Notes under the pieces: model-generated | Databases searched by the model: none | Told to the model about the DNA's origin: nothing | What the model saw: only the letters and a program-made list of their open reading frames with translations | Assembly: GCF_019710475.1 (NCBI RefSeq) | Contig: NZ_JAJFAX010000002.1 | Span: 310,001-374,000 of the forward strand | Direction of reading: 5' to 3' | DNA length: 64,000 bases | Source of the DNA: Glycomyces sp. TRM65418 | GTDB lineage: Bacteria > Actinomycetota > Actinomycetes > Mycobacteriales > Micromonosporaceae | Translations under genes and position numbers: made by a program | In this document: piece after piece, positions 20,136 to 51,500 of the stretch | Numbering within the stretch: position 1 is the first letter of the stretch | Layout: each line of letters opens with the position of its first letter

Positions 20136-20352
20136 ACCCGGCAGCGCCGCGGCGTTATCCACAGGCCGCTGTCCTGGGGAAACGCAGCGTTATCCACAGG
20201 CGGGAAATAGTTCTTGGCGGCACTGGTGGGACATGTGATGGTTGATAGATAAAAACAGCTGCTTCGCCGGTGGCGGTGGAAGTGCGGAGTGGCGACCCGG
20301 TTCTGGCAGGACTGGCGGCGAAAGTGGGAATCCCGGGGGCCGCCCCCGAAGA

Positions 20353-20378
20353 CCGCGCGCGGGTGCACCCGCGCGCGG
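20353..20378. terminator. 26-bp perfect palindrome / hairpin 1 of copy I
   Basis: CCGCGCGCGGG, TGCA centre, then its exact complement. Can fold as an 11-bp stem with a 4-nt loop. It may act as terminator or as a structured RNA. Confidence 0.6.
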
Positions 20379-20407
20379 CTCCTGCCAGGACACCTCGCGA
20401 GGAACCC

Positions 20408-20440
20408 GCGGGCGCACCGGCAAGGCGCCGGTGCGCCCGC
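20408..20440. terminator. Hairpin 2 of copy I
   Basis: Perfect 14-bp stem (GCGGGCGCACCGGC) with an AAGGC loop. No U tract follows, as is usual for actinomycete terminators. Confidence 0.6.
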
Positions 20441-51093: not shown

Positions 51094-51127
51094 GCGGGCG
51101 GTCGGGCTGGTGTGCCCGACCGCCCGC
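51094..51127. terminator. Hairpin 2 of copy II / nitrobindin terminator
   Basis: Perfect 13-bp stem GCGGGCGGTCGGG with an 8-nt loop, 20 nt after the nitrobindin stop. Confidence 0.75.
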
Positions 51128-51156
51128 GTGTTCCGCGGAAGGCATGGTCCTGCGGG

Positions 51157-51188
51157 GACCGCGCGCGGGCGGCTTCCCGCGCGCGGTC
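51157..51188. terminator. Hairpin 1 of copy II
   Basis: Perfect 13-bp stem GACCGCGCGCGGG with a 6-nt loop; the 5' arm is identical to that of hairpin 1 in copy I. Confidence 0.65.
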
Positions 51189-51500
51189 TCGGTATGGCGA
51201 CGTTCGCGAATCCCCTTCTGTCGCCGCCATCCCGCAGGGCCAGATGGCTTTTTTGTTTCAACCCTGACACGCTCTGCGATTGACCGGCAACAGCGAGTTT
51301 CTTCCTGTGGATAACTTTCCGCCCAGGGGTTTCCATGCTGGTCTCGGCCTTGGGGGCAGTGGTGGTCAGGGCCTTGGCGGCGATGCTTCGGCGGTGCATC
51401 TTCCAACCGTGTCACGGGCTGTAGATGAGTGACAACCTTGGGCTCTCCGCCTGTGGATAACCCTGGGGATTCGCTTGTCGTTGCAGGTCAGCGGCTCGGC

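Follow-up and report, generated by a model that had tools for sequence, protein, structure and literature searches.

A predicted family of structured RNA genes in Glycomyces, with an upstream DnaA-type box and a loop palindrome suggestive of dimerization

Two gaps between genes in a 64-kb stretch of DNA from Glycomyces sp. TRM65418 (hereafter, the window) contain the same series of short sequence blocks, which raises the question of what kind of element is repeated there and what it could do. The original prediction had described copy I as two 12-mers followed by an A tract, a GC block, a 26-bp palindrome, and a hairpin with a 14-bp stem, and all of these blocks are present. It had also placed a second copy at 51094-51461, where the boxes, an A6 run, the stem of helix P3, and the hairpin do recur in the same order when the minus strand is read (Table 1). 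The two copies (loci L005 and L007) align with 70.5% identity over 139 bp, with an E-value of 2e-7 in a set of ten sequences. The convergent gene setting was borne out for both elements: copy I is flanked by genes for a LuxR-type response regulator and an IMPDH-family protein, and copy II by genes for a THAP4-like haem-binding protein and an MrfA-type helicase. The 12-mer GTTATCCACAGG, which occupies the four boxes of Table 1, has four matches in the window when up to one mismatch is allowed, compared to 0.03 expected, and none of 100 shuffled sequences reached four. The presumed pairing of the boxes holds for both window copies, whereas many other copies have one box in the examined stretch; the box nearest the promoter is the one that keeps a nearly constant distance to the A-run.

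Table 1. Features of the two window copies, in window coordinates, and protein genes that share the box. A2 is the alignment of 81 matches defined in the text.
Element	Feature	Position	Strand	Basis or remark
Copy I	Distal DnaA-type box GTTATCCACAGG	20154..20165	+	Motif match
Copy I	Promoter-proximal DnaA-type box	20189..20200	+	Motif match; box and A-run layout of 121/137 copies
Copy I	Predicted promoter	20214..20242	+	-35 TTGGCG 20214-20219, 17-nt spacer, -10 GATGGT 20237-20242; read from sequence
Copy I	Predicted structured RNA core, type A	20250..20399	+	5' A-run, hairpin P0, P1/P2/P3 three-way junction
Copy I	A tract	20251-20255	+	
Copy I	Closing helix P1	20300-20311 pairing with 20380-20391	+	
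Copy I	GC block	20306-20324	+	
Copy I	P2-loop 8-mer UCCCGGGG, predicted kissing loop	20331..20338	+	Self-complementary with one U.G pair
Copy I	P3 (the 26-bp palindrome)	20353..20378	+	P3 pairs kept in 99.2% of A2 cells
Copy I	Pre-terminator palindrome CCTCGCGAGG	20393..20402	+	Read from sequence; counterparts in other copies
Copy I	Hairpin with 14-bp stem, probable terminator, without T-run	20408..20440	+	
Copy II	Distal DnaA-type box	51450..51461	-	Motif match
Copy II	Promoter-proximal DnaA-type box	51304..51315	-	Motif match
Copy II	Predicted promoter	51262..51290	-	-35 TTGCCG 51290-51285, 17-nt spacer, -10 region TCAGGG 51267-51262; read from sequence, with other copies compared by eye
Copy II	Predicted structured RNA core, type B	51139..51254	-	A6 at 51254-51249
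Copy II	P2-loop palindrome UUCGCGAA	51203..51210	-	
Copy II	P3 hairpin	51157..51188	-	
Copy II	Hairpin with 14-bp stem, probable terminator	51094..51127	-	
Protein genes sharing the box	M23 peptidase, L002			Pfam; relatives L111, L118, L127, and L134 by likeness
Protein genes sharing the box	DUF4192, L025			Pfam; L113 by likeness
Protein genes sharing the box	L014			Sub-threshold match to a REase family

The whole genome of this strain (5.09 Mb in 37 contigs) contains 26 exact TTATCCACAGG sites, compared to none for the reversed control. Some of these sites precede a GC-rich block, as they do in the window elements, and others precede the starts of protein genes; further groups lie upstream of dnaA (L017 and L018) and dnaB (L026) or inside a coding repeat (L012 and L013), and one site (L004) is unexplained. 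The 12-mer is present in all 22 Glycomyces genomes. Its combination with GAAA three bases behind occurs in four of 296 genomes sampled from the class, a sample in which our strain is the only Glycomyces, with five sites in its own genome and one in each of the three others. For the putative RNA, a covariance model (R1) was built from an alignment of nine type-A copies (A1), and it gave matches at E ≤ 0.1 in 19 of the 22 Glycomyces genomes. A wider model (R2) was again positive in 19 of 22, and for each positive genome 4 to 20 matches were listed, of which a few are short antisense matches to P3. Alignment A2 holds 81 R1 matches at E ≤ 0.001, taken from 80 fetched regions, the window, and seven loci of the same strain, and alignment A3 holds 65 further R2 matches from outside the R2 training set, among the matches listed. 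When identical cores and three antisense P3-only matches are dropped, 137 distinct copies remain (77 from A2 and 60 from A3); the 81 matches of A2 and eight weaker ones make up a second set of 89. The core of copy I scores 172.5 bits against R1, and that of copy II scores 91.7 bits against R2, each being a training member of the model concerned. Outside R1 training, the core of copy II scores 38.2 bits against R1 (E = 9e-6) in a match starting at 51301, upstream of the A-run. The strain's own genome has ten credible RNA copies, namely nine and the type-C copy L344.

A search of the whole genome and its relatives had been set beforehand as the test of the predicted repeat, and the many further copies returned by it support a dispersed family that has no Rfam match at threshold. 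No RNA match was obtained in three of the 22 Glycomyces genomes (G017, G018, and G021), though the 12-mer is present in them, and the RNA is therefore not needed throughout the genus. With R2, our strain was the only positive genome among 296 sampled from the class, two of 39 genomes in the family sample were positive, both of them Glycomyces, and nine of 298 were positive in the order sample, comprising eight Glycomyces and one weak match; the class and order runs were made with stricter filters that lose weak matches. The weak match (G410, E = 4.5e-4) was rejected as a distant homologue, since its locus has no box that could be found and no 8-nt loop palindrome. Thus, no credible RNA match to another genus was found in the class, family, and order samples. 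Within the genus, L335 was judged to be a probable false match because it lacks the box and the 8-nt palindrome, and it is still included in the counts.

The architecture deduced for these copies starts with a 5' A-run and hairpin P0, which are followed by helix P1 and by P2 with its large loop; a linker leads to P3, behind which stand the pre-terminator palindrome and the terminator hairpin. In 56 of the 121 copies that have both box and A-run, the match to the model extends upstream of the A-run by more than 20 nt, and the P0 pairs of A2 and A3 are untrustworthy because they lie partly in promoter DNA; P1-P3 were therefore counted alone. Hairpin P0 is clear within type A only. In A2 (77 distinct of 81 rows), which like A3 was fitted to a model so that agreement is inflated, 96.7% of the P1-P3 cells pair, compared to 82.7% in shuffles, and 22 of the 29 pairs have changed on both sides. 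Cells in which both sides have changed number 298; shuffles yield 74.2 (sd 10.8) and slid structures 7-24, and the slid controls, which keep the relatedness of the copies, score far below the model. The whole model gives a similar picture on A2, with 92.9% of cells paired (78.4% when shuffled), 38 of 48 pairs changed on both sides, and 434 both-side-change cells, compared to 114 (sd 12.2) in shuffles and 43-80 in slid structures. The corresponding number for A3 is 392, compared to 143.7 and 56-92, respectively; the weak parts of A3 are outer helix 3 (55.6% paired) and the apical pairs of P2 (53.6%). Covariation is also present among the nine type-A copies of A1. Moreover, G-U cells outnumber A-C cells by 298 to 72 in A2 and by 208 to 113 in A3, and this excess favours an RNA made from the promoter strand.

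Collectively, the comparative sequence data indicate that the elements form a family of probable structured non-coding RNA genes, having a conserved fold with compensatory changes beyond both the shuffled and the slid controls. The GC block and the palindrome, which had been listed as separate blocks, are parts of helices P1, P2, and P3 of one three-way-junction RNA. The original prediction had combined a protein-binding box with either a structured RNA or a bidirectional terminator; the comparative data support the structured RNA, whereas bidirectional termination is possible as at most a part of the function. The final hairpin is probably the terminator of the RNA gene. A T-run of the kind that accompanies an intrinsic terminator is absent behind it in both window copies, where ACCAAACAGC follows 20408-20440 and AACCATCAAT follows 51127-51094. 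The pre-terminator palindrome is perfect, with a varying sequence, in 108 of the 137 copies, compared to 31.7 in shuffles; it is given little weight because the GC-rich background is high.

The loop of P2 contains purines with GGG or GGGA, followed by an 8-nt self-complementary stretch that adjoins the 3' arm. Among the 57 distinct loops of A2, 49 have an 8-nt palindrome, seven have one of 6 nt, and one has none, while shuffled loops yield 1.6 with a palindrome of exactly 8 nt and 1.9 with one of 8 nt or more. The distinct loops of A3 behave in the same way, a palindrome of at least 8 nt being found in 35 of 38 (1.2 expected) and in 29 of the 31 loops unseen in A2. Four Watson-Crick pairs can be formed by the loop 8-mer in 125 of the 137 copies, three in 11, and one in a single copy (L335); for the adjacent 5' stretch taken as a control, four pairs were found in none of 133 copies and three in one. 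UUCGCGAA is the loop 8-mer of 58 of the 137 copies, whose common descent means that the counts are not independent. All four positions of the palindrome switch pair type, and at least nine different palindromes occur, including CCCCGGGG, UCCCGGGA, UUCGCGAA, UCCGCGGA, UCCAUGGA, UCGAUCGA, UCUGCAGA, CCGCGCGG, and UUCCGGAA. Copy I, having UCCCGGGG with its U.G pair, is intermediate between UCCCGGGA and CCCCGGGG. Palindromes can differ at one site, as in the gap at the MrfA gene, where L239 has UCCAUGGA and window copy II, L246, and L254 have UUCGCGAA. The middle bases of the palindrome are unable to pair within one molecule, which indicates pairing between two molecules. Self-complementarity is thus kept while the sequence changes, which is the signature looked for in a symmetric kissing loop, and the P2 loop predicts a homodimer of that type.

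The models R1 and R2 start downstream of the box, which therefore lies outside of them, and a TTNTCCACA box is present in the searched upstream stretch of 88 of the 89 matches. In 121 of the 137 distinct copies, a TCCACA box is followed by an A-run at a distance of 55-69 nt; counted from the first T of the box, the distance is 60-62 nt in 114 of them. The 121 boxes read TTATCCACA in 115 cases and TTGTCCACA in six, and they are followed directly by GG in 95 copies and by another pair of bases in 26; the conserved unit is the DnaA 9-mer, the consensus of which we take to be TTATCCACA. The layout is missing in 16 copies, of which 14 have TTATCCACA but no A-run at that distance; L219 and L335 have no exact box. 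Both window copies have a TTG-type -35 element and, 17 nt on, a weak -10 element. A similar arrangement can be seen by eye in other copies, and the consensus outside the box is weak across copies. The layout is shared by several protein genes (Table 1), in which the first G of the 12-mer lies 60-62 nt before the starting ATG, and by analogy with these the start of the RNA was put at the A-run. The protein genes in question are probably leaderless and could possibly represent a wider regulon, although the M23 peptidase and DUF4192 genes do not form an obvious replication set.

Which protein could read this box? The 9-mer TTATCCACA also occurs shortly before the open frame of dnaA, in the gap that follows this gene, and upstream of dnaB. 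The gap after dnaA is rich in DnaA-like boxes and is probably oriC, with dnaN as an assumed neighbour. A DnaA_C gene was found once in each of 21 of the 22 genomes and was not found in G012; a paralogous DnaA-type regulator was rejected as the reader, as no second DnaA_C gene was detected across the 22 genomes. From the 9-mer at dnaA and dnaB and the single DnaA_C gene, DnaA appears to be the likeliest, not proven, reader of the box, and the consensus 9-mer does stand at a near-fixed position before the predicted start, as would be expected of a DnaA regulon.

A comparison of flanks places 71 of the 89 copies in 16 orthologous groups, whose members have at least one flank, and mostly both, in common, while 18 copies stand alone. 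In the gap of L010, five genomes carry UUCGCGAA, one carries UCCCGGGA, and two have other GC-rich forms. By a rough measure of identity, in which the ends of the element are cut where the model match ends, for 36 of the 71 copies a paralog in the same genome is closer than every ortholog at the same site in the set, and for the other 35 it is not. L009 and L010 have in common a stretch of 231 bp, bounded by the box and the terminator, with 99% identity. Since orthologous gaps hold differing RNA types, conversion fits better than fresh insertion, suggesting that copies have been converted between loci of one genome. At the site of the IMPDH gene, 14 named Glycomyces loci could be compared, whose IMPDH-family genes are the closest named relatives of the window gene, with 88-95% identity; the element is present in nine of them (L029 being cut by a contig end) and absent in five, and therefore gain or loss also occurs.

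On the basis of these properties, we propose that the element is a small-RNA gene in which the DnaA-type box controls the promoter and the three-way-junction RNA works as a homodimer through its palindromic loop, a reading that we regard as reasonably probable. DnaA, or another factor of the same specificity, would bind the TTATCCACA box centred ~55 bp upstream of the start and would thereby control a promoter of the sigma-70 type. The transcript, of ~160-190 nt, would start at the A-run, end at the GC-rich hairpin, and fold into a 5' hairpin (within type A only) and the three-way junction whose helices are indicated by covariation. Its P2 loop would expose the GGG(A) purines and then the 8-nt palindrome, so that two molecules of the same type could pair loop to loop, and the switching of the palindrome makes a homodimer the most likely working form. 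Because DnaA would control the promoter, the dose of the RNA would likely track DnaA activity, i.e., the replication state. The copies occupy gene gaps, in many cases conserved between species, and appear to become overwritten by copies from elsewhere in the same genome. The dimer may act in trans, for which a protein partner is the most plausible, if speculative, guess. More tentatively, the whole could form a replication-coupled dimer system, in which DnaA drives up to ~20 small-RNA genes, own-type recognition is provided by the switchable 8-nt palindromes, loops are kept matched within a genome by conversion between loci, and several types coexist in one cell.

Other explanations should be weighed against this proposal. 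Many dispersed copies, two of which (L009 and L010) are nearly identical from box to terminator, and the occupied and empty IMPDH-gene sites would suit a non-coding mobile or selfish repeat of the MITE or REP kind, whose fold is a feature of transposition or of its hairpins. We consider such a repeat quite unlikely, given that the flank-sharing groups with RNA types switching at a site prefer conversion over insertion, and that neither the near-fixed position of the promoter box nor the switching of the loop palindrome would be expected of it. No match was found in phages with copy I as the query or in plasmids with copy II as the query, and the flanks of L009 and L010, a single near-identical pair, show no clear target-site duplication by eye. 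Another view is that the boxes are sites for DnaA titration or regulation, similar to datA, and that the rest is a bidirectional terminator with the RNA as a by-product. In this case, covariation in P1-P3, the G-U excess on one strand, the box spacing, and the loop palindromes would be hard to understand, as they need selection on an RNA, and this view is accordingly very unlikely despite the DnaA-type boxes, the strong hairpins, and the convergent genes around both window copies. In a rough ORF scan, six of the ten copies in the strain's own genome have an opposite-strand frame downstream, but three have a same-strand frame and one has no called frame, so that convergence is not general.

Two further alternatives leave the RNA family in place. 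It is somewhat unlikely that another factor recognises the box in place of DnaA, with all else as described: the same box and spacing before the M23 peptidase, DUF4192, and other genes might point to such a factor, whereas the nature of the conserved 9-mer, its recurrence at dnaA and dnaB, and the lack of a second DnaA_C gene in the 22 genomes point to DnaA itself. The loop palindrome could also be a site of cleavage or protein binding, or could pair internally, in an RNA that works as a monomer. The GGG before the palindrome of type A can indeed pair with the CCC of the palindrome, but the GGGGA stretch of type B, as read from its sequence, cannot do so with UUCGCGAA. In addition, the inner 6 nt of the palindrome recur elsewhere in the RNA and terminator in 7 of 143 cases only, and the existence of at least nine different palindromes argues against a single protein site, making the monomer unlikely. 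The homodimeric small RNA under a DnaA-type box is thus the reading that we prefer.

No Rfam family matched the window at its gathering score, and none matched copy I at E ≤ 1. The best sub-threshold match of copy II was BjrC80, with 30.6 bits compared to a gathering score of 80 (E-values of 0.0002-0.04, depending on the amount of sequence); it was rejected, as it occurs only on copy II, is aligned best over the terminator hairpin, and is absent at E ≤ 0.5 from nine other member loci. A search of titles and the beginnings of abstracts, covering part of the literature, found no published account of this RNA. With no match to a described family at threshold, the RNA is apparently undescribed. 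The 6S and Ms1 RNAs are long bulged hairpins, present in one or a few copies, with a length roughly similar to that of the Glycomyces RNA. Identity with them was rejected in view of the three-way junction, the 4 to 20 matches per positive genome among the matches listed, and the lack of an Rfam match. Neither Ms1 nor its synteny was detected in Glycomycetales, according to parts of the text of PMC9130861.

Functional RNA oligomers are described as rarely observed in nature in the abstract of a review (PMC7357161). For loop L9.3 of OLE and loop L21a of GOLLD, palindrome switching between relatives has been taken as support for intermolecular pairing, as stated in sections of PMC12286853. The Glycomyces RNA resembles OLE, ROOL, and GOLLD in being a bacterial non-coding RNA with a symmetric loop, the palindrome of which switches its sequence between relatives (in OLE and GOLLD, in the same sections of PMC12286853). 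It differs from them in its predicted length of ~160-190 nt, its single three-way junction, its many dispersed loci with DnaA-type boxes, and a palindrome of 8 nt rather than 2-4 nt, and its oligomer is only predicted. HIV-1 DIS, the oskar 3'-UTR, and the hatchet ribozyme likewise have a self-complementary loop for which a symmetric loop-loop dimer is expected (PMC7357161, in part). The palindromic kissing loops tabulated in the portion of that review available to us have 2-6 nt, compared to 8 nt here. In contrast to the HIV-1 DIS type, the 8-mer is located on the 3' side of a 16-24-nt loop in a multi-copy bacterial RNA, with the pairing being a prediction. The function of DnaA as a transcription factor is covered in a review (PMC8203912), in which the terms "srna" and "small rna" do not occur. 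A consensus DnaA box upstream of a promoter, here a predicted one, is common to DnaA-regulated promoters and the Glycomyces elements; the near-fixed distance of the box before a dispersed small-RNA family is different.

If the proposed mechanism is true, the family would provide an unusually clear natural RNA oligomer, with a loop palindrome that is switched yet stays self-complementary in a multi-copy RNA, and this RNA is of a size that ordinary biochemistry can handle. If the RNA is under DnaA control, the replication initiator would directly drive a small-RNA family, which may couple DNA replication to an as yet undescribed RNA partnership. Both the claim of DnaA control and that of an oligomer are open to experiment, in vitro as well as in a soil actinomycete.

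Several minor observations concern the boxes and the hairpins. Three near-identical type-B copies (window 51461-51316 on the minus strand, L019, and L022) have a second box 146 bp upstream, after which a short reading frame runs towards the RNA. The gap before dnaB in the strain's own genome (L345:3861-3936) holds six DnaA-type boxes, five of them TTGTCCACA and one TTATCCACA. The boxes in L012 and L013 and, by likeness, in L122 and L124 were rejected as boxes of the RNA type and judged to be coding repeats. These four loci contain clusters of TTATCCACAG, several of which are 21 bp apart, in an apparent coding region for SYPQ-like repeats, and this reads as a codon effect that mimics DnaA boxes. 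Finally, L187, L206, L232, L237, L240, and L248 have long G/C runs, some with N, at the place of the terminator hairpin, and these runs, found in several assemblies, probably arose as artefacts of sequencing or assembly where a hairpin is strong.
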